A model generated the notes under the pieces. The model worked only from the letters and a program-made list of their open reading frames with translations, was not told where the DNA came from and made no database searches. The translations under genes were made by a program, and so were the position numbers. Below, piece by piece: positions 834 to 27,376 of a DNA stretch of 27,376 nucleotides. Source of the DNA: a virus; the IMG/VR virus record IMGVR_UViG_3300031758_000459, positions 1 through 27,376 of that record, one strand, 5' to 3'. Position 1 is the stretch's first letter, and each line of letters opens with the position of its first letter.

Positions 834-2330
834 CTAGATGTCCTCGATCCAGACGATGGACGCAGCCACATCGCTCGCGTTCGTGCTTGTCGCGGTGATG
901 GTGAGGTAGTCGCCGGCTTGCATAAACAGAGCGATGTCGGTCAGACTTTCCGTGGAGTTGCCCGTCTTGCTCACCGCGAACGCGTACACGAGCGTGCCGT
1001 TTCCGACGCTGAAGCCGGTAGCGTTCTGATCGTAAGACGCAGCCGACGTGGTCGAGTTGACGTACTGCCAGCGAGGCGCGGTCAGCGTGCTGTTCTTGTA
1101 GACCTTGAACAGCACCGTCTTCGTTCCATCACATGCAACCGAGATACGGTCGATCTGAAGTTGCGCCGTGGACTGACGGTTTAGGTACACGGTGTTCGCA
1201 CGCAGCGAGAGGATAGGCGTCTCGACACCGGCACCAGCGGTAACGGATGCCGGGGGCACCGCAAACTGCGCTCCGAGGAACTGAACAGACCCTTCAACGA
1301 ACGCACCGCCTGAAGCACCGCGCATCACTACCGAGGTTCCTGTACCGGTGTTGCGGCTCTCCCAAGTCAGGTAGAGGTTCGGGTTTCGAAGGTTCGTGCT
1401 GCTGCGGGTGTTTGAGTTGCGGATGACGTGGCAGAGTGTTGGGCGTCCCGTGAGCCCATCGACTACGTAGAAGAAGGCATCACCGTAGCCGAGGTATTGA
1501 AACTGCACCCCGTAGACGTTGCCCTTCGTCGGGTCGATGGTCTGTCCGCTGGGTCCGGTGCCGTCGAACTTGTCCTGGTTCCACGACGACTGCGGGATGA
1601 ACTGCTCGGTGGGAGCCACTCCTGTCGTGAGGATGGCGAACGTAGCGACAGTCCCTGTGGTCCCTGGTGCGAACGTCGAGGAACCAGCAGTACCCGCCGT
1701 CTTGCGAGTGAAGTACACGACGTTGGCGACCGCTTGTGCATCCCACCCACCAGCGGTCTGGCTGTAGTTAGCCGAAGCGATCTCGCTCGCGGTGACCGAC
1801 GTGTTCCCGCTGTTCGTCACAGCCACGACCACAGGTGTGCCCGCGTCGAGAGTCACGGTCACGTTGCCGCTCGAGGCAGGTGCGCCCGTCACGGTAAGCG
1901 TCTGCACCTCGACCGTAGCGGCCTCCGTGTAGAGGATGCCGAACGACGTTCCGTTGTAGCCGAACTGGTAGCCGGCCTCGATGTTGTAGAGGCCCGCCAT
2001 CTGACGGTTGCCAGCAGACCCGGTGGTGAAGCGAGCGGTCCACTTCGCCATCGTCGCCTGACCCGCACGGTACTTCGCGACCTTCTTCGACGTGAGTCGA
2101 GCGTATCCATCGGTCGAAGTCCCACTCGTCATCACGGCCTCGCCGTTCGACAGCGTGACGGTGGCGCCCGTACCGTAGACATCCGTCGTCACGAGCAGCG
2201 GGTTCAGTCCGTAGATGAACGCTACCTGCGAGGTCGGAGTAGGAGAGATAGTCTCGATTTCTCCGAACCCAGAGAGTGGGCTAGATATCGAAACGCTTGA
2301 GGACGCCCGTTGCGGGAAGATCTGGCTCAT
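834..2330 (-). CDS. Tail fibre / receptor-binding-type structural protein
   Basis: This 498-residue, Ser/Thr/Gly-rich beta protein has almost no charged helices, which is typical of phage fibres. Three parts can be seen. The N-terminus (MSQIFPQRA) may dock to the tail. A repeat-like beta domain spans about residues 139-240, running from the VQTLTVTGAPA region through GGWDA to VVYFT. A segment at about 255-330 carries WNQDKFDGTGPSG, GNVYGVQFQYLGYGDAFFYV and the GRPTL and NSNT motifs, which recall a module found in tail proteins of many unrelated phages. The C-terminal 170 residues are a beta domain with regular hydrophobic spacing. It lies directly upstream of the endolysin gene in the same operon. 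Its N-terminus resembles that of the 530-residue protein at 16057. It may equally be a baseplate or tail adhesin. Confidence 0.65.
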   Translation of the reverse strand: MSQIFPQRASSSVSISSPLSGFGEIETISPTPTSQVAFIYGLNPLLVTTDVYGTGATVTLSNGEAVMTSGTSTDGYARLTSKKVAKYRAGQATMAKWTARFTTGSAGNRQMAGLYNIEAGYQFGYNGTSFGILYTEAATVEVQTLTVTGAPASSGNVTVTLDAGTPVVVAVTNSGNTSVTASEIASANYSQTAGGWDAQAVANVVYFTRKTAGTAGSSTFAPGTTGTVATFAILTTGVAPTEQFIPQSSWNQDKFDGTGPSGQTIDPTKGNVYGVQFQYLGYGDAFFYVVDGLTGRPTLCHVIRNSNTRSSTNLRNPNLYLTWESRNTGTGTSVVMRGASGGAFVEGSVQFLGAQFAVPPASVTAGAGVETPILSLRANTVYLNRQSTAQLQIDRISVACDGTKTVLFKVYKNSTLTAPRWQYVNSTTSAASYDQNATGFSVGNGTLVYAFAVSKTGNSTESLTDIALFMQAGDYLTITATSTNASDVAASIVWIEDI

Positions 2331-2364
2331 GCTTTACCCCTTAAACGGATCGTCCGTATCTACC

Positions 2365-2553
2365 TCAGTCGATGAGATCGCGCGTCAGCTTCGCAGCAAG
2401 AGGAACGAGGTGCGCCTTGAGCAGCACCTTCATCTCTTCCTTGTCGAGGCGCTTCTTGCCGTCCGCATCGACCTTCAGCGACTTCTGAAGGAAGAGGGCC
2501 AACTCGTAGGCGTCGGTGCCGATGTCGATCATCTCGTCGGGGGTGATGGGCAT
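2365..2553 (-). CDS. Small helical protein, unknown function
   Basis: This 62-residue acidic/basic helical protein is not recognised. It starts MPITPDEMID and has a central SLKVDADGKKRLDKEEM stretch. That stretch looks vaguely like a calcium-binding loop, but its acidic residues are wrongly spaced for an EF-hand. A good ribosome site (AGGGAG) lies just upstream. The gene begins one base after the stop of the preceding 67-residue gene, so the two are likely co-translated. Position among fibre genes suggests a fibre chaperone or minor structural role, but nothing in the sequence proves it. Confidence 0.6.
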   Translation of the reverse strand: MPITPDEMIDIGTDAYELALFLQKSLKVDADGKKRLDKEEMKVLLKAHLVPLAAKLTRDLID

Positions 2554-2554
2554 G

Positions 2555-2758
2555 TCAGACTCCCTGATTGTCGGTGGGGACCACGACTTCTTCCGTCCAG
2601 AAGTGCGGAAGCACCCACTGCTCCTGCTCAGCCTGGGCCTGTAGGAACGGTGGGATGCCGGTGTAGAACCCGACGCAGCCTTCCGCTTCGCAGATGGCGA
2701 CGTTCGCGTCGAACGAAGAGTCGAGGGGAGCGATGAGCCACTTCTGATAGATGATCAT
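2555..2758 (-). CDS. Small protein, unknown function
   Basis: This 67-residue protein is aromatic-rich (MIIYQKWLIAPLD, QWVLPHFWTEE) and has two cysteines in ICEAEGC. The family is not recognised. The ATG shares the ATGA overlap with the stop of the glycine-rich fibre gene, so it is translationally coupled to it. That pairing suggests a partner or chaperone of the fibre, as inference only. The final residues are polar, and there is no membrane segment or signal peptide. Confidence 0.6.
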   Translation of the reverse strand: MIIYQKWLIAPLDSSFDANVAICEAEGCVGFYTGIPPFLQAQAEQEQWVLPHFWTEEVVVPTDNQGV

Positions 2759-3798
2759 GTCACCACCATGAGAACGTAGAATCCGTCTGCGCCCGCCGTT
2801 CCGTTACCACCAGTTCCACCACCGATGGCAGCACCAGTGCCACCAGTTCCACCAGCCACGCTTACTGTTCCACCAACGCTGGTACTCTTCGTGATGATGC
2901 CGACAAGACCACCACCACCACCACCACCTCCACCGACTTCACCTGTACCTACACCGACAGAGGCGTTCGCTCCATTGCCGCCCTTTGCGCTGATGTTCCC
3001 GCTGTTGGAGATGGTCTTAGCAGCGATCCAGACGATGCCGGCGCCAGAACCGCCACCACCAGAGATGAATGTACCACTAGTGATCGCTGTGATAGTCGCA
3101 GCACCGCCGCCACCCCCGGCGCCTCCGTTGAACGCACCGAAGGATCCACGACCGTCAAGAATACGGCCAGACCAGCGCTGAGGTATAGCGTTAGCCGGGG
3201 CAGTACCACCAGTGCCACCTGTTCGGCTTGACGAGTTGCCGCCGTTTCCACCAGCTGGCTGCACGTTCAGCGAGTTCGGAGACGAGTTGGTGTTCGCGAT
3301 ACCATTGTTGCCGTTTGCTGCCTGGATCCCACTGACAGACCATCCAGAACCCGCGTTCGTGCCGCTGCCGCCAAGGTAGTTGCGTGCGACAAAACCGGTC
3401 GGACCCACCTGGTTTGTCGCGCTCGTTCCATCGTCATCGATGGATCCACCCGATGCGATGGTAAGCGTTCCAGCAACGAAAATGCGGTTTCCGTTCGGCT
3501 TCAGCCTTCCGGTGGCGCTCACCGTCAGGTTGTTGTAGTGCATCTCCCGGCTGAGCGTGGTCGTTCCGGTAATGGTCACATCGCCATCCCCGGCATCACC
3601 GAAGAGCGCGTTGAAGAACGAACTTGAGATGGCAGACGCAGGAGTCCCGTGCGTGTGGTCGGCACGCGCATAGTCAGTCGAGGCTCCTACAGCCGGAGAC
3701 TGGCTATAGGACGTCTCGCTAACGACCGATGAGGCCGGCGTACCGCTACCGCCGCCGCCACCATCAATCGGTGACGGAAGAACCTGAGATCCAGCCAT
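2755..3798 (-). CDS. Glycine-rich tail fibre / tip adhesin
   Basis: This is a 347-residue structural protein. The N-terminal 60 residues carry a Gly linker (SPIDGGGGGSG) and YARADHTHGTP, a motif common near the start of phage fibre proteins. Residues about 75-125 form beta repeats (DVTITGTTTLS, GRIFVAGTLTIASGGSI type). From about residue 140 to the end the chain is dominated by glycine tracts (GGNGGN, GGTGGT, GGAGGGGG, a run of nine glycines, GGTGGTG). Such tracts recall the stacked polyglycine-II core of the receptor-binding tip proteins of some T4-like phages, for example S16 gp38. It could be the host-recognition tip, or a collagen-like shaft. The stop overlaps the next gene by four bases. 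Confidence 0.65.
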   Translation of the reverse strand: MAGSQVLPSPIDGGGGGSGTPASSVVSETSYSQSPAVGASTDYARADHTHGTPASAISSSFFNALFGDAGDGDVTITGTTTLSREMHYNNLTVSATGRLKPNGNRIFVAGTLTIASGGSIDDDGTSATNQVGPTGFVARNYLGGSGTNAGSGWSVSGIQAANGNNGIANTNSSPNSLNVQPAGGNGGNSSSRTGGTGGTAPANAIPQRWSGRILDGRGSFGAFNGGAGGGGGAATITAITSGTFISGGGGSGAGIVWIAAKTISNSGNISAKGGNGANASVGVGTGEVGGGGGGGGGLVGIITKSTSVGGTVSVAGGTGGTGAAIGGGTGGNGTAGADGFYVLMVVT

Positions 3799-3801
3799 GC
3801 T

Positions 3802-4173
3802 CTACCTCACGATCTCGAAGTAGACCTCGTAGTCGAACACGTTGTCCGCACCAGCGTTCGGGCCAGGCTCGAGGTAGAGCTTCCCGCTGCTGTCCGTGAA
3901 CGTGTAGACCTCTGCGACGGTATCGAAGAGCGCAGCCACAGCGGTGCTGCTTCCCTCAAACTCCTGATTGATGCTGGCCGAGAGCGCTCCGCTCACCTTG
4001 TAGATGCGCGGAGTGAACGTAGCGGCAGCACCAGCGGTGTGCTTGAGCTTCACGCGACGGATGATGATCTTCACGCGGCCATCCGAAAGCACGAGCGCGG
4101 TCTGCGTCGTGCTACCGGAAGCAGCCGTCGTGCCCGTCAACCGCGAGACGGGCTGCGGGGCGATCGCGCTCAT
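3802..4173 (-). CDS. Small beta-rich virion protein, unknown
   Basis: This 123-residue protein starts MSAIAPQPVSRLTG. The start at 4173 is preferred over an upstream in-frame ATG at 4209, because its ATG shares one base with the stop of the previous gene (TGATG), a typical coupling signal. The upstream start would add an Arg-rich leader that overlaps the neighbour. The sequence alternates polar and hydrophobic residues (VKIIIRRVKLKHT, FDYEVYFEIVR), which suggests a beta sandwich. It lies between two other tail-type genes, so a minor tail or fibre-attachment role is likely but unproven. Confidence 0.6.
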   Translation of the reverse strand: MSAIAPQPVSRLTGTTAASGSTTQTALVLSDGRVKIIIRRVKLKHTAGAAATFTPRIYKVSGALSASINQEFEGSSTAVAALFDTVAEVYTFTDSSGKLYLEPGPNAGADNVFDYEVYFEIVR

Positions 4174-4637
4174 CAGGCCACGCGCAGGACGGTGACGTAC
4201 ACCACGCAAGCGCTGTTCGTGCCGACCTTGGTGGAGGTGACCTTCAGCAGACCGCCAGACGCGACATCCATCTTGCTGTCGTCAATGGAGAAGCCGCTGG
4301 TGGTAAGCACCTGGTCGTTCACCGAGAGAGTGGTGGCGCCAGTAATCGCGTCGGATCCGTTGAACACCTGCACGGTGTTGTTGCCGCCAGCGTTCGCCGC
4401 CACCTTGAGGTGGGTCACGTCGATGACGCGCACCTTGTAGGGCATCGTCACCGAGATGGTGGACGTTCCGTCCGCAAACGCGAAGGGGACGACGAGCGGA
4501 GACGAGAGCGTGGGCGCCGTGTTGTCGGCGCTGTACGCGGTGGCGTTCGCGAGGATCGTGCCGCTGAAGGCATTGCTCGCGAGCTTGGGGGCAGTAACTT
4601 CACCGTTCTTGATGAAGTCGCGACGGATGTACGGCAT
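4173..4637 (-). CDS. Small beta-rich tail-type protein, first gene of the leftward operon
   Basis: This 154-residue protein starts MPYIRRDFIKNGEVTAPKLA. The start at 4637 is chosen over an in-frame ATG at 4676 because a clear ribosome site (GGAGGG) sits 5-10 bases before it. The N-terminal GEVTAPKLASNAFSGTI pattern is like the short repeats at the start of many phage fibre proteins. The remainder is beta-rich with a central FADGTSTISVTMPYKVRV stretch. It heads the leftward operon, with the 113-bp divergent intergenic region just upstream. It may be a fibre-anchoring or decoration protein. The exact family is not recognised. Confidence 0.6.
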   Translation of the reverse strand: MPYIRRDFIKNGEVTAPKLASNAFSGTILANATAYSADNTAPTLSSPLVVPFAFADGTSTISVTMPYKVRVIDVTHLKVAANAGGNNTVQVFNGSDAITGATTLSVNDQVLTTSGFSIDDSKMDVASGGLLKVTSTKVGTNSACVVYVTVLRVA

Positions 4638-18389: not shown

Positions 18390-18989
18390 GTGGCTACAAC
18401 TAGTGAGATGATCGGTGGTGCAATCGGAGCCGTCGCAGGTGGTGCGTTCGGCGGTCCTGCCGGCGCGACTGCTGGGTACGGCGTCGGAAAGGGCATCGGC
18501 AGCATGGTCGATCGCGCTCGCGGGAACGAGTTCACCAAGGCTTACGACAAGACCTTGAGCGAGTCGCTTCGCAAGATCCGTATGGGCCAGTCGCTAGCGC
18601 CGAGTGCTGCCGAGGTTCAGCAAGCCACGATGGGTGCGCAGCAACAGGCGCTCTCCGTGCAGCAGCAGCAGCAAGCCGACCTTGAGCGTGCGGCAGCGAT
18701 GGGTGGTGCGCGTCAGGGTGCGTTCTTCACGGCGCAGCAGCAGCTCGGACAGGCGTCTGCAGATGCAGTGGCCCGTGAGCGCATGGCGAATGAGATGCGT
18801 GCGCAGTCCATCGGTGAGCTTCGCCGTATGCGGGCGCTCGGTGAGGCCAAGGTGCGCGGCGCAGAGATCACCGAACAGAAGGCTGCAGAGGCTCAAACCA
18901 CAGACCCGTTTGAGAAGCTGCTCGCTCCTGGCGAGACTGAAGACTCGTTCGTAGCGAAGTTCCTTGGATCCTTCATGGGAGGACAGTAG
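18390..18989 (+). CDS. Glycine-zipper internal virion / ejection protein candidate
   Basis: This 199-residue protein starts at GTG 18390 behind a GGAGG site. Residues 8-37 form a hydrophobic, glycine-spaced stretch (IGGAIGAVAGGAFGGPAGAT and on to GKGIG), the glycine-zipper type seen in proteins that insert into membranes. The rest is helical, with a Gln-rich run (QQQALSVQQQQQADLERAA) and Arg/Glu/Ala heptads. Small proteins of this kind precede the large internal virion proteins in short-tailed phages and help form the DNA ejection channel. That role is inferred from composition and order. It is followed two bases later by the 841-residue gene. Confidence 0.65.
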   Translation: MATTSEMIGGAIGAVAGGAFGGPAGATAGYGVGKGIGSMVDRARGNEFTKAYDKTLSESLRKIRMGQSLAPSAAEVQQATMGAQQQALSVQQQQQADLERAAAMGGARQGAFFTAQQQLGQASADAVARERMANEMRAQSIGELRRMRALGEAKVRGAEITEQKAAEAQTTDPFEKLLAPGETEDSFVAKFLGSFMGGQ

Positions 18990-18991
18990 TC

Positions 18992-21517
18992 ATGGCTGCA
19001 CCCGCTACCGCCCCCACGCGAGCCGACCTCACCAAGCAGTTTTCTGATCAGTACATCGCGATGCTGAACGCTGCGGTGAAGATCTACGCTGAACAGCGTG
19101 ATCCTCTTGAGAAGGAGTTGGTGGCTCTTCTCACGTCGCAGCGCAGCCTCGACAAGGCGATTGGCGAGGGACAGAACAACGCGTTCGTGAAGCTCGTAGA
19201 CGTGAACAACCGCTACGGTGGAATGGTCGCGCGTGGCTCCGTCAGCGGTCAGGACAAGGTCAAGTACCTGATCGACATCCTTGAGCTTCAGAACAAGGTG
19301 AACAAGGGTGGAATCGCAGCGAACGAGAGTCGTATCGACAGGATCTTGCGCGACTCTAATGTGACGGAGCCCGGTCAGGCTAGAATCCCTGAAAATGCTG
19401 CACGCATCTGGCGCAACTACATCGACCTTGTTGGCGATGCTGCGTATGACCCCACGCTGACCGCTGACTTCCAGCGTCTTATGGACCTTACTGGATACGA
19501 CGAGAACACCGTCGCTGGTCTGGAAGGTGGCGCGGGGATTCTTGAGCAGCGCAACCTACGTATTCAGGCGGCAAACTCGCTCGACTCTGCCGCTCAAGTC
19601 ATCATCAACGCTTTCGGTCAAGATGCTCTTTCGAACCTGAAGAGCAGCGCCGGAAGTGCTGCTGGAATCGCCGCCGTAGGGTCGAAGCTCGCGAGCATTC
19701 CAGACGATGTCTACGACCAGGTTCGCGTACAGGCCGGTATGCTTCCCGGTCTTGGTGACTCTCAAGCGAAGCGCGCCGCATACGAAGAGCGCATCAAGGT
19801 TATCCGAGATGCTCTTGCCGAGAATCCAGAGACGCGCATCACCGCGATCATGTCTGGCATCCAGAGCAAGGTCGATGCTGCCAACAGCGGGTTCAAGAGC
19901 GTGAGCTTCAAGGCCCGCCTCATGGGTCAGCCGAAGTTCCACGAGTGGGCGAAGAGCAACGGCTTCACCGTAGGGTACGCCCGCAAGGCCGATCAGCCCG
20001 GCGATCAAGACCTTCCCGGCTACGACAGCGCGACGAACACGGTCTACGTCCCTGGCCTCGATGACGAGCGCGCCTTCCGTGCTGCTGCCCGACAGGCTGC
20101 GATGGGACCGCGCGCACAGGCGCTCCCGTCGTTCATGCAGGGAGTGCGTGGCCGTCTGCCCGAGCGTAAGAACCTCACCGTCGAGGTCTCTGAAACGTCG
20201 GCTGAAGAAGAGAAGAAGAACGAGGCCGACCGCGCCAAGGTTCACCCTGACGGTAAGTTCCGCACCATCGACGGGAAGTACGCCACGGAAGCAGAGGTCA
20301 AGGCTGCGCGTGATGCCGAGACCTACATCGAGAGCGGAACCACCAAGGGTGGCACCCCGGTGTTCAAGACTGCGACCGGAAAGATCTTCCTTTCTAGCCC
20401 CGGCATGGAGCCTGTAGAGGTTCAGCCCGGTGATGCTCGTCTTGCCGGTATGACGTTTACGCGGCTTGCTGCTCCGCTTGTTGCATCGGATGATGCTCTC
20501 GGCATTGCAGAGGCTCCGGTTCCTCCTCCCGCAAAGACCCGTACCATCGTGGGTCGTGAGACTGCGCTGCTGCCTAGCGACCCGCCGGGAGCGACGGTCA
20601 TTGAGACCACCGAGGGTCGGCGCATCGTCATCCCGAAGGAGAAGATCGTCTCCTCGCGTGAGTACAAGGAAGGCGATGTCACCAGCGGTACGGGTACGCC
20701 TCTTGAGGGCGAGACCGGTGCGCGTGGTATCCGTGCGCCGTTCGCTGCTGCTCGAGCTAGGATGGGTGGTCTCCCTGCCGTTGAAGCAGCGACTCCACCA
20801 GAGATCACCCCACAGGCTGCTGCTGTGCGTCGTGTGGTCACTCCGACCGTGGCTGCGCCCATTCCTGCACCTGTTTCTAGTGAGGTTGCTGGCGCACCTG
20901 GTATGCGTGCGCGTGTCGCCCCCACCGCAGTCGCACCCATCCCCGCTCCGTCGGTGACGGTCACTCCTGGTCAGGAGGCTGGTGCAGAGGTTCGTGAAGC
21001 GGTTCCGTCCGCTATGACGGGTGGTAATGCTCCGCAGCCTGTGCAGACTGTTGTCGGAACGCCTGCGAAGGTCCCGGTGATGGTTGGTCGCACAACCCCG
21101 ACTCCTGCGACCATCCCGACGCCTACGTTCGGAACCATCCCCGAGCCTCCGCCTGAACCGATGATGCCTAGCGTGACCTCTGCAACGTCTGCTGTAGCGT
21201 CTCCGCGTCTTGAGGACATGCCGGCATTCCCCGTTGCACCTGCGCCTGTTCCTGCACCTGCAAAGCCGGCGGCTCCCGCTCCTGTTGCTGCTCCGGCCCC
21301 TGCTCCTGCACCTACGCCCGTTCCTGCTGCTGCACCGGCTCCAGAGGAAGACATCTTCTCTGGTGCGACGATCACGATGGAGCCGGAAGAGGTTCCGACC
21401 GTCGCTGCTCCCGATACTGCTGCGCTCAAGTCTCGTCTTGATGCGCTGCGGCGTAAGCGTGCAGAACGTGAGGCAGCAAGGCAGCAAGCGTTGTCTGCTG
21501 GTGTCTTCTCGCAGTAG
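18992..21517 (+). CDS. Large internal virion / ejection-type protein
   Basis: This 841-residue protein has four parts. The first is a helical N-terminal region (about 9-300; FSDQYIAMLNAAVKIYAEQR, VKYLIDILELQNKVN). The second is a mixed central region to about 580, including LMGQPKFHEWAKSNGF and DGKFRTIDGKYATEAEV. The third is a long Pro/Ala/Val-rich, probably disordered segment (about 600-785). The last is a short basic helix at the C-terminus (LKSRLDALRRKRAEREAARQ). Residues 785-805 carry EEDIFSG and PEEVPTVA, which recur in the giant gene next door. It is likely packed inside the capsid and ejected with the DNA. No catalytic motif such as a transglycosylase is seen. Confidence 0.62.
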   Translation: MAAPATAPTRADLTKQFSDQYIAMLNAAVKIYAEQRDPLEKELVALLTSQRSLDKAIGEGQNNAFVKLVDVNNRYGGMVARGSVSGQDKVKYLIDILELQNKVNKGGIAANESRIDRILRDSNVTEPGQARIPENAARIWRNYIDLVGDAAYDPTLTADFQRLMDLTGYDENTVAGLEGGAGILEQRNLRIQAANSLDSAAQVIINAFGQDALSNLKSSAGSAAGIAAVGSKLASIPDDVYDQVRVQAGMLPGLGDSQAKRAAYEERIKVIRDALAENPETRITAIMSGIQSKVDAANSGFKSVSFKARLMGQPKFHEWAKSNGFTVGYARKADQPGDQDLPGYDSATNTVYVPGLDDERAFRAAARQAAMGPRAQALPSFMQGVRGRLPERKNLTVEVSETSAEEEKKNEADRAKVHPDGKFRTIDGKYATEAEVKAARDAETYIESGTTKGGTPVFKTATGKIFLSSPGMEPVEVQPGDARLAGMTFTRLAAPLVASDDALGIAEAPVPPPAKTRTIVGRETALLPSDPPGATVIETTEGRRIVIPKEKIVSSREYKEGDVTSGTGTPLEGETGARGIRAPFAAARARMGGLPAVEAATPPEITPQAAAVRRVVTPTVAAPIPAPVSSEVAGAPGMRARVAPTAVAPIPAPSVTVTPGQEAGAEVREAVPSAMTGGNAPQPVQTVVGTPAKVPVMVGRTTPTPATIPTPTFGTIPEPPPEPMMPSVTSATSAVASPRLEDMPAFPVAPAPVPAPAKPAAPAPVAAPAPAPAPTPVPAAAPAPEEDIFSGATITMEPEEVPTVAAPDTAALKSRLDALRRKRAEREAARQQALSAGVFSQ
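21227..21343 (+). repeat. Pro-Ala coding low-complexity repeat, end of the 841-residue gene
   Basis: Short imperfect repeats of CCTGC/GCTCC type encode alternating Pro, Ala and Val (APAPVPAPAKPAAPAPVAAP and similar). They form a flexible linker just before the EEDIFSG motif. The matching array near the start of the next gene lies about 300 bp downstream, so recombination between the two is possible. Confidence 0.7.
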
Positions 21518-21520
21518 CCA

Positions 21521-21545
21521 TCTTGACGTTAGACTAGCGTCGAGA
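21521..21545 (+). promoter_or_regulatory. Small hairpin at the giant gene's ribosome site
   Basis: TCTTGACG (21521-21528) pairs with CGTCGAGA (21538-21545) over eight positions, with one G-U pair and a nine-base loop. The 3' arm covers the first bases of the GAGAGGG ribosome site for the ATG at 21553. It could tune translation of the giant gene. It is short and may be chance. Confidence 0.3.
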
Positions 21546-21552
21546 GGGAACC

Positions 21553-24500
21553 ATGCCTGACCCGCAGAAGCTGGCCGAAGAGCGTCGTCGCCTGTTTGAG
21601 GCCATGAAGGCCCAGACTCCTGCGCCCGCTCCTGCCCCTGCGCCAGCTCCTGCACCTGCGCCAGCACCCGCACCTGTTGCTGCTGCACCTGCGCCCAAGC
21701 CTGTCGCTCCCGCTCCCGCACCTGTTGCTGCTACGCCGAAGCCGCCCGCACCACGCAAGAAGGTCCGCAAGACCCCGACGACGGCTGCTGCAAAGCCCGC
21801 TGCTCCTGCTGCCCCTGCGCCGATGGTCATCAAGGTTCAGGGGCGTACCGCACCTGCACCCGCTCCTACGCCAACCCCTGCTCCTGAACCGGTCACCATC
21901 GCGAGCCAGGTTGAAGAGCAGACCCGTCCGATGGTCGAGGCGAAGCGGGCAGAGGTGAAGGCTGCGAGGGCCGCAGAGGCTGCAAAGATCCCTGCGTCTG
22001 CGCTTGAGTTCAAGCCCGCCGATGTGCCCGACGAGGACATCCTCTCTGGCGAATACGTCGATGAATCGCGGAAGATGCTCCGCTCCTTCTACTCGGCACA
22101 GGCTGGAATCATCGCAGACAACCGCCGCCGCGGCATCACCATGCCGGATGAAGAGGTTCGTCGCCTTGCCGCCACCAAGGTCGCCTTCACGCCGAAGAAG
22201 GTCGCTGGCATCACGGTCCCGTCCTCTCGCGCTCTGTCTGCGCTCGGCACGCTCGCTAGCGATCTCACCACCATCCGCATGGGTGAGGACGCCAACGCTC
22301 GTGCAACTAGGGCTGCTGCGCGTGCGGCGTCTGTCGCGGCTACGGACCCTCTCGCAGAGATCGACAAGCGTGAGAAGTTCGTGCGTGCCCTTGAGACACG
22401 TCTCGGTGGTGACGAACTGACCGCAAGCCTCGTCAAGCGCATGGACGCGGACGCCAAGAAGTTCGACGCCGCTACCCGTGCGAACAACTACCCGAAGCTC
22501 ATCCGTGACTTCAAGAGCCGGTACGTCGCTGGTCGCATGCAGCAGACCGGCAACGACAAGAAGTTGAACAGCACGAACCCGCAGGAGATCGCTGAAGCTC
22601 GAGCGGCTGAAGAGTCGTTCAACCTTGAGGCCGATAAGACGCTCGACTCCCTGCGTGTCGCCGGCAACCCCGTCATTCGTGGCGGCATGAACGTCGTCAC
22701 GGTCGATACCGTAAATGATGCATTCGGGCGCGGACCAGTCGAGGGATTGCGAGAGGTCGCCAACATCTTCCTTCCGCAGGTAGCGCCTACGGCTACGGGC
22801 AAGGCAGTACGCGTCGAGAGCATCCCGTCTGCAGTGCTGCGTGGTGTCTCGGCGCCTGTCGCTGCGCTTGCGTCTGCGATCCCCATGCCGGGCGAGCGTG
22901 GCGGCATCAACCTTGGTGCTGCACCAGGCGAGTCTCGTGGTCTGCGTGGCGATCCTCTCGCTCGCATCCAGGCCGGTCGCACTCCGCTCGTTGATGCGAT
23001 GGAGAATGACTGGGTCCGCAACGCTCTTGAGCGCGGAGACGCAGCCGACAAGGCGCTTGCGATTGGTGTGCTGACTGCTGCTGGGGCCGCCGAGGTCAGC
23101 GTGCCTGGTCTTGAGGTAGTCGCCGCACCCGCTGCCGGTCTCGCTCTCGGCAAGACCGTGGATGCTGGTCGCTTCATCATCAACGCCAGCGATGCGCTTG
23201 CTGTCGCTCGTGCAGGAAAGGCTGGAGGTCTCCCGCCTGTCGGCATCCCCGGCGCCATCCGCGACATGGTCGATACCGTCAAGCGTGCGAAGAGCATCTA
23301 CAGCAGCACGCGTGATGAGGGCAAACTGTTCGACGCCGTCATCGCTGCACGCGGCAACCACCCGACAAACATCAACGTCACGCTTGATGAGGTGAACCCT
23401 GCGCTCGCTAGGGTCTACCGCGATGAGTTCCTCAAGGCTGTGGACAAGGACGCTGACCTCAAGAAGGTTCTCGACGCCCTTGTCGAGGACGCTCCTCCTG
23501 CAGAGCGGTCGAACGAGTTCCGCGTCCTCGTCAACAAGGACCAGAACGACATCGTCACGCTGCTCGATGATGCCGCCACCCGTGCTGCTGATGACGTAGC
23601 GCGTGCGGAGAAGCGCGTTGCTGCTGCAGATGACGCTCTGAAGCAGAGCCGGTTGAAGCCTACTACGGAAGAGATCGAGCGCACCATCAAGGCTCAAGCG
23701 AAGACTCTCTCCGTAGAGCGTGAGGCCCTCACCAAGGCAAAGGCGAAGTCTGCCTCGCTTGAGGCGCTGCGTGGTATTGACCCTCAAGACATCCGCACTC
23801 GCATCAGCGATGCGTCCGATGAAGCCGTGCGCACGATGCTCGGTGAGAAGCGGGCCGCTCCTGAACCGCCCACCGTCCCGTCTGCTGCAGCCATCGACGT
23901 GCAAGACGTTCAGCGGGTGTTTGGCACGCTAGTCACCCCGACAGAAGCGCAAAGCACCACCAAGGCGAAGAGCCTCCACGAGTGGCTGCGCGGTAAGGGC
24001 GACAAGTCGCTCACGGTCGCAGAGTCTGCCGTTGTCAAGGATCTGATCTCAACGCTGCGCTCCGGTCCTGCTGGTGAACTGATCAGCATCATCGAGAACG
24101 AAGGTCAGCGTCTGGTCACTAGCGGTCAGCGCACCGCGCCGTACTCCGAGCTTGAGCTTCTCCGTCGTCTCGACAGCGCAGATGCTGCTCGTGCATTTCA
24201 GAAGCTGCAGGAGTTTGAGGCTCGCGAGGCAAAGGTTTTGAACCAGCTCGCTGAAGATGCGATCGAGATGAACGACATTCAGGAGCGATTCATCTCGTCT
24301 GCAGAGGCAAAGTTGCGGCTCAAGGCTGCAACTGATGCGGTCAACGATGCGCTCAAGAACGCCAAGATGGCGTCTCAAGATCTTCAGCGTGCGCGGTCGA
24401 TGAAGGTTCCGAAGGCGCAGGTGAAGGCTGCTGCTGAAGCAACCAAGGCGCGCAAGACTGCGACTGTCCCACCGGTCTCCGAAGTTACCGTAGAGAATGC

Positions 24501-27376
24501 TGTAGACATCGCGTCTGACCCGTCTGCTGCTGGTGTTGACTCTGCCGCTGTGGCCCAGCAGCTTGACGCTGTGAACGGTGCGCTCCGTACCGTCGTTCCT
24601 GACAATGCCGCTGCTCGTCTTCAGGTCGAGATGCGCTACGGTCTCGACCGCAACCGCATCTACGGTGTGACGAACGAACCGTGGGAGCGCCCTGATCTTA
24701 TTCTCACGGATCGCCCTCCGATCACGGCTGAAAGCGTCCGCGATCCGAAGCACCTCTACAAGCTCGCTAGGAATCGCGGAATCGACAACGTCGAACGCTA
24801 CCTCATGGCTGATGGTCCTGCGATCAAGGCAACGATTGAGAAGAACTTCAACGAAGCGTTGAACGCACAGACCGTTACGAAGGACAACGCGGACAAGATC
24901 CGTAAGTACCTCGACGCCGGCATGGCCGAGCATGACACGGCGAAGCGTGAGTTCGCAGCGCGTGTAGGTCTTCCTCACTTTGAGGAATACATCACCGGGA
25001 GTGAGTTCTGGGGACGTGGTCCGAAGTTCGACGGAGCCAAAGCCAAGAAGTTCTACGATGACCTCGACAAGATCGCGGCGTCGATGCCGGATGGTACGCG
25101 GCGCGCTCGAGGTGAGAACGTCTACTTCCGTTGGCTAGGGTATCGCTCCGCTCCGGAAGGCTTCGACCCGCTAGTCGCACGCCTGGACGACTTCGTTGAA
25201 GTCCGCAACCCCAACCTCGCTGAACAGGCTGGACCGCTGCGGCAGACCGTGGTGCTGCCTGATGGAACGACTCGCTTCGCTGACGAAGGTGCGGTGTCCG
25301 ATCGTTTCACCGGGTACATCGTTGGTGCAGAGGTTCGCGACGGTAAGCAGTACCTCGTGGTGCAGCCGACAGAGTACGTCACTAGCAAGGGTCCGCAGCG
25401 CGTTCGCGTTCAAGGCCGAAGCGTCCTCGTTCCTGCTGAAGAGGCCATCCTCTCCGAGCGTGGTCGCGTTCCGTCCTACACCGTAGGTACGGGTCGCAGC
25501 ACGAAGGAAGGCGTGCGCATGGCCGTCTACGACATCGCTCGCCCGATGACGAACGCCGAGTGGGCTGCGCTTGCCGAGCGTGAGAAGGTCGCATTTAAGG
25601 GTAGCGCCGGGAAGATCCGCTACGATGGTGCGTACAACCGCCACGTCACCGAGCCGATCGCTCCCCCGAAGCGTCCGACCGCTACGGACTTCGACATCAG
25701 CCCCGATGATGCGATGGACGCCAACGGGTACAAGGATCTTCTGAAGCGTGCCGTGCCGAAGCCGCAGGTGGTCAAGGAGACCGCGCCCGCTGCTGCTGCT
25801 CGCGTTGCGCCTGAAGAGGCGCCTACCGTCGCTGGTCGTGCTGCCCCTGAAGAGGGGCCGCTCTACACCGGAGAGGATCGCCCCACCGAGGTGAAGCGCC
25901 GGGTCGTGAACGCTGCGATGAACAATCGCGACAACGCGGTCGAGCGCCTCGACCAGGTACGTCGTGAGGCTGGTGCCGTCGTAGCAGAGTCGCGCATCCC
26001 CGACGCCACTCTCGACAAGCGCTTCAAGGAGTTGATCGCTCGTCAGGCGAAGCTCGAGCAGGAGCGCCAGCGACTTCGCGAGGCCATCAATCTTCAGTCG
26101 AAGGTCGTGAAGGGTCTCGATGAGTACGGCGACCTTGCCGACTCTGCTTACGACGCTGTCAGCGCACCTCGTCGCGCGATGGCCGACCAGCTCGAGCGTG
26201 CCCAGCGCAACGTCGCTGCAAGCCTCGCTGCAGAGACCGGTCGTGCCCGTGACCTCATCGCAGAAACGCGTGCCGCGTCCTTCCCCGAGCGCGAGATCAA
26301 CCTCCAGCGTCAGGTGCAGGAAGAAGTGCGCCGCGTTGCTGCCTCGACGCCTGGCATGCAGAAGGTTGCCGAACTTGGTCGTGGTGTGGGTGCGCTGTTC
26401 TCTAGTGCGCGTGAGGTCGTTGAAGGCACCGTCCCCAAGGCGCTGCGTGACCTCAACCGCGAGATCGAGCGCATGGGCGATGCTGCGGCTCGCGACCTTC
26501 AGGCGGCTGTGGATGCCGTCAACGTCACGGACCCGAACCAGCGTCTCACGACCGTGATGCAGATGCTGGACGACACCAACTACGGGTCCACCTGGAAGAC
26601 CACGCAGGAGCTGGGGAACCTCGATCCTCGTGCCGTAGACAGCATGGCGTTCGCCTACGTCGAGGATGTCCCCAAGTTCTTGAGGGAAGACCCTGCTCTT
26701 GCAGACGAACTTCGCAAGACCGTCCGAACCATGACGTTCGATGAAAAAGACATCGGATCGATGAATGATCTTTCGTACATCATCTCTGGGATGACTCCTG
26801 AACGAGTCATGGGTGAGCGCGCGATAGCGACTGGAGACATTCAGTTCGCTCAAGCGGTGATGTCGCAGGGCATCATCAACCACGCCACCACGCAGATGCT
26901 GAGTCTGGGCGCGCTCTACACCAAGGAAGAGATGCTGGCGATCTACGCGTGGATGCGCGGTGGTGATGTCTCGACGCGTGAAGCCGCTCGTGGACGCGAT
27001 CTTGCGCTCGCAATCTACGGGAGCGCGGTCGATACCCGCAAGCCGATCAACGGCATCGCAGACTTCTTCAACGCACCGGAGAACAACAGCCTCGTCTCGG
27101 CCATTCGTCTGACTGGCGCGACCATCGAAGAGGGCATGACCGAGGGGACCGCCGCTGCTGAAGTGCTGAAGGCTTACGAGAAGGTGCTTGGTCAGCGTCT
27201 GTACCTGCCCGAGACCGTAGCGCGTCAACTGGACAAGACGGTCAACGACATGCTCATCGCGACTCGCGGCGGTGTTGATGGATCGACCGGATGGTTCACG
27301 AACCCTGGCTGGATGTTCGGACAGGCGTACAAGAAGTCGTCGGTCTATGGGCTGTTCTCGCCACGCACCGAGTTCT
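21553..27376 (+). CDS. Giant virion protein, at least 1941 codons, 3' end outside window
   Basis: A single uninterrupted frame runs from ATG 21553 (ribosome site GAGAGGG) to the window edge. The N-terminus has a charged helix (MPDPQKLAEERRRLFEAMKA), then a Pro-Ala array (about 23-60), a basic patch (RKKVRK) and DEDILSG (160-166). About 501-535 is a hydrophobic, Gly/Ala-rich segment. Coiled-coil-like regions cover about 676-745 and 1493-1598. A beta-like region lies near 1180-1290 (FTGYIVGAEVRDGKQYLVVQ). A Pro-rich hinge with PEEAPTVA is at 1420-1427, and a helical domain extends to the edge. Size, order and hydrophobic part suit an internal virion or ejection protein. I see no polymerase, protease or lysozyme motif in the visible part. 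Confidence 0.72.
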   Translation, partial: MPDPQKLAEERRRLFEAMKAQTPAPAPAPAPAPAPAPAPAPVAAAPAPKPVAPAPAPVAATPKPPAPRKKVRKTPTTAAAKPAAPAAPAPMVIKVQGRTAPAPAPTPTPAPEPVTIASQVEEQTRPMVEAKRAEVKAARAAEAAKIPASALEFKPADVPDEDILSGEYVDESRKMLRSFYSAQAGIIADNRRRGITMPDEEVRRLAATKVAFTPKKVAGITVPSSRALSALGTLASDLTTIRMGEDANARATRAAARAASVAATDPLAEIDKREKFVRALETRLGGDELTASLVKRMDADAKKFDAATRANNYPKLIRDFKSRYVAGRMQQTGNDKKLNSTNPQEIAEARAAEESFNLEADKTLDSLRVAGNPVIRGGMNVVTVDTVNDAFGRGPVEGLREVANIFLPQVAPTATGKAVRVESIPSAVLRGVSAPVAALASAIPMPGERGGINLGAAPGESRGLRGDPLARIQAGRTPLVDAMENDWVRNALERGDAADKALAIGVLTAAGAAEVSVPGLEVVAAPAAGLALGKTVDAGRFIINASDALAVARAGKAGGLPPVGIPGAIRDMVDTVKRAKSIYSSTRDEGKLFDAVIAARGNHPTNINVTLDEVNPALARVYRDEFLKAVDKDADLKKVLDALVEDAPPAERSNEFRVLVNKDQNDIVTLLDDAATRAADDVARAEKRVAAADDALKQSRLKPTTEEIERTIKAQAKTLSVEREALTKAKAKSASLEALRGIDPQDIRTRISDASDEAVRTMLGEKRAAPEPPTVPSAAAIDVQDVQRVFGTLVTPTEAQSTTKAKSLHEWLRGKGDKSLTVAESAVVKDLISTLRSGPAGELISIIENEGQRLVTSGQRTAPYSELELLRRLDSADAARAFQKLQEFEAREAKVLNQLAEDAIEMNDIQERFISSAEAKLRLKAATDAVNDALKNAKMASQDLQRARSMKVPKAQVKAAAEATKARKTATVPPVSEVTVENAVDIASDPSAAGVDSAAVAQQLDAVNGALRTVVPDNAAARLQVEMRYGLDRNRIYGVTNEPWERPDLILTDRPPITAESVRDPKHLYKLARNRGIDNVERYLMADGPAIKATIEKNFNEALNAQTVTKDNADKIRKYLDAGMAEHDTAKREFAARVGLPHFEEYITGSEFWGRGPKFDGAKAKKFYDDLDKIAASMPDGTRRARGENVYFRWLGYRSAPEGFDPLVARLDDFVEVRNPNLAEQAGPLRQTVVLPDGTTRFADEGAVSDRFTGYIVGAEVRDGKQYLVVQPTEYVTSKGPQRVRVQGRSVLVPAEEAILSERGRVPSYTVGTGRSTKEGVRMAVYDIARPMTNAEWAALAEREKVAFKGSAGKIRYDGAYNRHVTEPIAPPKRPTATDFDISPDDAMDANGYKDLLKRAVPKPQVVKETAPAAAARVAPEEAPTVAGRAAPEEGPLYTGEDRPTEVKRRVVNAAMNNRDNAVERLDQVRREAGAVVAESRIPDATLDKRFKELIARQAKLEQERQRLREAINLQSKVVKGLDEYGDLADSAYDAVSAPRRAMADQLERAQRNVAASLAAETGRARDLIAETRAASFPEREINLQRQVQEEVRRVAASTPGMQKVAELGRGVGALFSSAREVVEGTVPKALRDLNREIERMGDAAARDLQAAVDAVNVTDPNQRLTTVMQMLDDTNYGSTWKTTQELGNLDPRAVDSMAFAYVEDVPKFLREDPALADELRKTVRTMTFDEKDIGSMNDLSYIISGMTPERVMGERAIATGDIQFAQAVMSQGIINHATTQMLSLGALYTKEEMLAIYAWMRGGDVSTREAARGRDLALAIYGSAVDTRKPINGIADFFNAPENNSLVSAIRLTGATIEEGMTEGTAAAEVLKAYEKVLGQRLYLPETVARQLDKTVNDMLIATRGGVDGSTGWFTNPGWMFGQAYKKSSVYGLFSPRTEF
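21619..21741 (+). repeat. Pro-Ala coding low-complexity repeat, start of the giant gene
   Basis: Near-tandem short units (CCTGCGCC, GCTCCTGC and variants) encode an alternating Pro-Ala run, then mixed Pro/Val/Ala, at about residues 23-63 of the giant protein. The peptide is likely an extended flexible linker. It mirrors the array at the end of the preceding gene. Confidence 0.75.

Follow-up and report, generated by a model that had tools for sequence, protein, structure and literature searches.

The DNA stretch analysed here (the window; 27,376 bp, one linear fragment) ends inside an open reading frame so long that it raises the question of what kind of phage protein is encoded there, and whether that kind has been described before. 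The preliminary description had presented it as a giant frame without a stop up to the window edge and without a recognisable enzyme, and had suggested a modular, possibly multi-domain ejected protein of an undescribed kind. The frame (P0001; 21553..27375, plus strand) starts with an ATG, is complete at its 5' end, encodes at least 1941 amino acids and is cut at its 3' end by the end of the contig, which is also the end of the IMG/VR record. Its 1941 stop-free codons confirm the first of these claims: in 60 random sequences drawn from an order-2 Markov model of matching composition, the longest stop-free frame averaged 333 codons and reached at most 525. The start of P0001 is credible because a Shine-Dalgarno-like GAGAGGG (21542..21548, plus strand) lies just upstream of the ATG and is conserved in a related phage, G001 (IMGVR_UViG_3300020042_005535), in which the leader and the N-terminus are near-identical. 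Comparison of P0001 with its G001 counterpart yielded a dS of 1.02 and a dN of 0.30 at 62.8% amino acid identity, and the frame is therefore translated and constrained. P0001 is thus a genuine gene truncated by the contig end, and the long antisense frames that overlie it are composition artefacts, by-products of GC-rich codon use.

The G001 giant is complete, with 2780 aa and 63% identity to P0001 over their common part, and it extends 788 residues past the window end before giving way to a small-terminase gene. About 790 residues of P0001 are therefore missing and a stop or frameshift just past the edge, which the preliminary description had named as a refutation of its reading, is unlikely; from the homolog, a full length of about 2730 aa is to be expected for P0001. 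A second relative, G002 (IMGVR_UViG_3300044641_002006; L017), encodes a diverged homolog with a length of 2145 aa or more (26% identity, E 2e-41). Used as a direct query, the giant protein returned no match. Searches with tail and capsid proteins outlined a group of related uncultured phages, two of which reach the giant gene, and single-protein and alignment searches using the tail protein, the giant core and the capsid protein detected this gene only in G001 and G002. The other related contigs presented no match to the giant, and most of them (L002, L004, L005, L009, L010, L013, L025 and L027) stop short of its gene. The fast divergence of the giant gene may break metagenome assembly at this point and so hide such genes. 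A search of genome contigs found no provirus, and for this reason no host was assigned; a plasmid search returned no match.

The genomic context of P0001 outlined a three-gene cassette. Three consecutive genes encoding proteins of 199, 841 and at least 1941 aa, with the giant last, are located directly behind tail-type genes. The first encodes a glycine-zipper protein (18390..18989, plus strand) and the second a protein with a Pro/Ala-rich C-terminal part (18992..21517, plus strand), and they occupy the positions of gp14 and gp15, in agreement with the earlier reading of the two genes as a glycine-zipper and an internal-type protein. The same order is repeated in G001 (203/831/2780 aa) and G002 (200/752/at least 2145 aa), and it is the layout of the podophage ejection cassettes of the gp14/gp15/gp16 class. 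Among the other genes of the window phage are those for a P22-type portal (PF16510, 6e-13), the large terminase and the major capsid protein. A tail-type protein weakly resembles 'phage stabilization' proteins, and the portal type, together with the gene order, suggests a podovirus morphology. At the DNA level, Pro-Ala repeat arrays are present in the gene for the 841-aa protein at its 3' end (21235-21336) and in the giant gene at its 5' start (21619-21676), and similar Pro-Ala tethers thus flank the junction of the two genes on both sides.

At the other end of the window, a minus-strand gene (129-824) encodes a 231-aa GH46 chitosanase-like protein (Pfam 3.8e-19, over the cut-off; PDB chitosanases, 8.7e-17) that is 70% identical in G001 and has no match in the G002 stretch searched. 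Such a protein is unusual for a phage and possibly serves as the lysis enzyme. The adjacent genes (834-2330, 2755-3798 and 3802-4209) encode a structural protein of the virion (phrog_1645, 3.6e-46) and fibre-like proteins rich in Gly; they too lie on the minus strand, whereas the other virion genes are on the plus strand. The product of 2755-3798 is variable among the relatives.

A salient feature of the cassette is the complete absence of cysteine from all three proteins. The 2981 residues of the window cassette include no cysteine, whereas the other structural proteins have 40 in 3993 residues (Poisson P about 1e-13); the cassettes of G001 (0/3814) and G002 (0/3097) are likewise free of it. 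This empirical hallmark was calibrated on nine isolates (T7, N4, P22, Sphaerotilus R1, phiKMV, epsilon15, P-SSP7, DSS3phi2 and DEV), the ejection proteins of which contain six cysteines in 25,075 residues, compared with 197 in 33,537 residues of their other virion proteins. Among proteins of at least 600 aa from these isolates, 14 of the 16 ejection proteins and none of the 19 others are cysteine-free. The signature is therefore strong for large proteins, although not exclusive, because smaller scaffolding and other helical virion proteins are often cysteine-free as well. A lack of cysteine has been proposed to be important for the entry of the N4 virion RNA polymerase (vRNAP) into the cell (PMC2784036, PMC3715699, PMC3915230), and the ejection-protein papers searched for this feature do not mention it. 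Cysteine depletion has been noted before for N4-like vRNAPs and for the StenR_269 and Zobellviridae giants, and is here extended to the whole cassettes of nine phages. Since, among large virion proteins, it sets the ejection proteins apart from the rest, it provides a cheap sequence test for unannotated ejection cassettes.

Fast divergence, which is characteristic of ejection proteins (PMC8954989), was likewise detected. Between the window and G001, dN/dS is 0.42 for the 841-aa protein and 0.30 for the giant, compared with 0.07-0.18 for other genes; the capsid protein and the terminase are 98% and 93% identical, and the two large cassette proteins 63-64%. In the comparison with G002, identity falls from 85% for the capsid protein to 26% for the giant. 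The giant is hence constrained, yet evolves faster than the other virion genes.

The anatomy attributed to the protein in the preliminary description, with coiled coils, a hydrophobic Gly/Ala segment, a beta-like region and Pro-rich hinges, holds on the sequence. Near the N-terminus of P0001 lies a tether (residues 24-112; 21622..21888) that is rich in Pro and Ala and probably disordered; it is followed by a hydrophobic segment (residues 423-443; 22819..22881) and a hydrophobic Ala/Gly-rich stretch (residues 504-560; 23062..23232), both of which are candidate membrane contacts. The most conserved block forms a core (residues 1011-1405; 24583..25767; 72% identity to G001 and 32% to G002) that encompasses a stretch, at about residues 1214-1300 (25192..25452), predicted to be strand-rich in a low-confidence model only. 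The core is followed by a variable, coiled-coil-like slot of 158 aa (residues 1406-1563; 25768..26241) and by a conserved helical block (residues 1564-1941; 26242..27375) that continues for about 790 aa in G001. All these features lie on the plus strand, and the remainder of P0001 is largely helical as judged from its sequence. Structure prediction produced two AlphaFold models with mean pLDDT of 46 and 39, which are unusable.

The comparison of the slot with its G002 counterpart bore out the claim of modularity. In place of the 158-aa coiled coil of the window phage, the G002 giant presents about 490 aa (residues 1368-1859) that contain an ART-PolyVal domain (PF18760; 41 bits, cut-off 31). 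An adjoining module of about 150 aa within the same stretch (1625-1771), which is covered by no Pfam family, matches gp41, an internal virion protein of the T7-like Sphaerotilus phage R1 (E 4e-12). It is also found in Macromonas phage BK-30P and, more weakly, in the giant of the Prochlorococcus P-SCSP1 podophages; in Sphaerotilus R1 and P-SCSP1 the matching proteins occupy the same cassette position. Because ejection proteins of other phages also carry this module, an exchange of modules between them and the slot appears to take place. Within one phage group, the giant thus keeps its chassis while exchanging an enzyme-bearing slot.

Searches for a known function were negative throughout. P0001 returned no match against Pfam, PHROGs, NCBIfam, PDB sequences or, by tblastn, INPHARED, and the complete G001 giant returned no enzyme match in the same databases. 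The claim that no enzyme is recognisable hence stands for the visible part and for a full-length relative, and a profile hit of the visible part to a known family, which would have refuted the preliminary description, did not emerge from the scans. No SLT transglycosylase domain, the hallmark of muralytic internal proteins of the T7 gp16 type, was detected in P0001, P0002, P0003 or the G001 giant by a profile scan in which T7 gp16 itself matched SLT at 1.7e-31. The window protein lacks an HExxH metallopeptidase motif, a search for LPD38 by accession carried no information, as its control gave no match either, and an FxPFW-type motif at the C-terminus of the G001 giant did not recur among the comparison sequences. 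Alignments with hhalign of three blocks to 26 known giants or ejection proteins were at chance level, and phmmer, hhalign and tblastn identified no known gp16-type or ejection protein matching P0001; only the module of the G002 homolog matches Sphaerotilus gp41. Homology to gp16-type proteins is often absent within the ejection-protein class, and it is thus supportive rather than defining (PMC8954989).

Taken at face value, the ART-PolyVal domain of G002, beside a second mobile module, raises the possibility that, besides or instead of forming a channel, the giant serves to deliver a domain of an undescribed type, either enzymatic or for host takeover. This domain would lie in the core (residues 1011-1405) or among the roughly 790 C-terminal residues that the window lacks. 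Polyvalent proteins combine, in one chain, two or more domains of disparate biochemical activities, and some of them are giant phage proteins that are packaged along with the DNA (PMC5512222); a size far above that of T7 gp16 and a conserved core with strands in a low-confidence model are consistent with such a role. No domain, however, was recognised in P0001 or in the complete G001 giant, the core presents no recognised catalytic motif, and the zincin-like HExxH common, though not universal, in polyvalent proteins is missing. We consider this reading possible but doubtful. The more specific proposal that the core or the C-terminal residues known only from G001 constitute an undescribed domain of this type, and the protein a new class of polyvalent effector with an exchangeable cargo slot, appears unlikely.

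The cassette also invites comparison with N4, in which a giant and cysteine-free vRNAP is likewise the last of three genes, and the same arguments have led to the 2270-aa giant of StenR_269 being assumed to be a vRNAP (PMC10747016). That P0001 is a diverged N4-type polymerase is nonetheless very improbable. Polymerase motif B (R...K.{7}YG), present in N4 and DSS3phi2, is absent from the giants of the window phage, G001 and G002, in which isolated [TD]xxGR matches occur without it; the test is good but not perfect, because the pattern misses DEV gp71. Moreover, the HExxH of three known vRNAPs is missing, tblastn returned no INPHARED phage, N4-like phages included, and hhalign scores against the N4, DSS3 and DEV giants did not exceed chance. 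An external tail protein or adhesin that is not ejected could account for the large size and the low-complexity Pro/Ala linker, but P0001 is mostly helical, lacks cysteine and lies behind gp14/gp15-type genes, whereas the beta-rich fibre-like genes are found on the other strand (834-4209), making this explanation scarcely credible.

P0001 is best read as a large, indeed oversized, internal (ejection) protein. With a probability of about 0.87, it would be the last and largest of the three proteins encoded by a podophage ejection cassette, in the position of T7 gp16, N4 gp50 and P22 gp16, with a role in the ejection channel. The preliminary proposal of an ejected-type and modular protein is in this respect supported by the position and size order of the cassette, the lack of cysteine, the fast evolution, and the G002 module common to T7-like internal virion proteins. 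In T7 and in two N4-like phages, N4 itself and DEV, packaging in the head, ejection and assembly of a trans-envelope channel have been worked out (PMC8954989, PMC12633501, PMC10925440). By analogy with these systems, the 199-aa protein, the 841-aa protein and the giant would be packed together inside the head and exit through the portal before the DNA, partly unfolded and thiol-free, to refold in the envelope. The 199-aa protein could then form an outer-membrane pore and the 841-aa protein a periplasmic tunnel, while the giant would touch the inner membrane with its hydrophobic segments and extend into the cytoplasm. The core and the C-terminal helical region may provide the structural chassis, and the slot at about residues 1406-1563 would be the site at which a relative, G002, carries a probably host-directed ART module and the window phage does not.

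The attribution to an undescribed kind found no support, since giant, cysteine-free, helical ejection proteins are already known (the N4 vRNAP, StenR_269) or present without annotation in cultured T7-like phages. The small/medium/large layout of the window cassette is that of T7 gp14-15-16 (196/747/1318 aa) and N4 gp52-51-50 (150/644/3500 aa) (PMC8954989, PMC12633501), which share its near-absence of cysteine and fast divergence, and also that of Sphaerotilus R1 gp39-41 (218/927/1186 aa). P0001, however, is about twice the size of T7 gp16, and lacks both the transglycosylase domain of that protein and the polymerase motifs of N4 gp50. The phage-type polyvalent proteins (PMC5512222) resemble it in being giants encoded near virion genes, and the ART domain of G002 fits that concept; the window giant differs from them in that it has no metallopeptidase and no catalytic domain could be recognised in it. 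The StenR_269 giant and the Zobellviridae internal virion proteins are, like P0001, giant, cysteine-free and alpha-helical, with no profile hits, low-confidence models and a location in a podophage late-gene cluster (PMC10747016), but no INPHARED sequence matches P0001 or G001, and the vRNAP role assumed for StenR_269 finds no support in P0001. A cassette with the same gene order and similar sizes is that of the Prochlorococcus podophage P-SCSP1a (217/953/2571 aa; ULF49526-ULF49528, all annotated as hypothetical). Its 953- and 2571-aa proteins are cysteine-free, and its giant (L046 5025-12740) contains no Pfam domain and has a module in common with the G002 giant; it shows no similarity to P0001, and the 953-aa partner, unlike the 841-aa protein, carries a lysozyme-like SLT domain. 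The P-SCSP1a giant comes from a T7-like cyanophage, where it takes the place of gp16 at about twice the usual size, and presents a HESFH motif. P0001, for which 50,697 phage records contained no detectable relative, defines a new sequence family within a kind that is already known, the giant podophage ejection proteins, and extends this class in uncultured phages.
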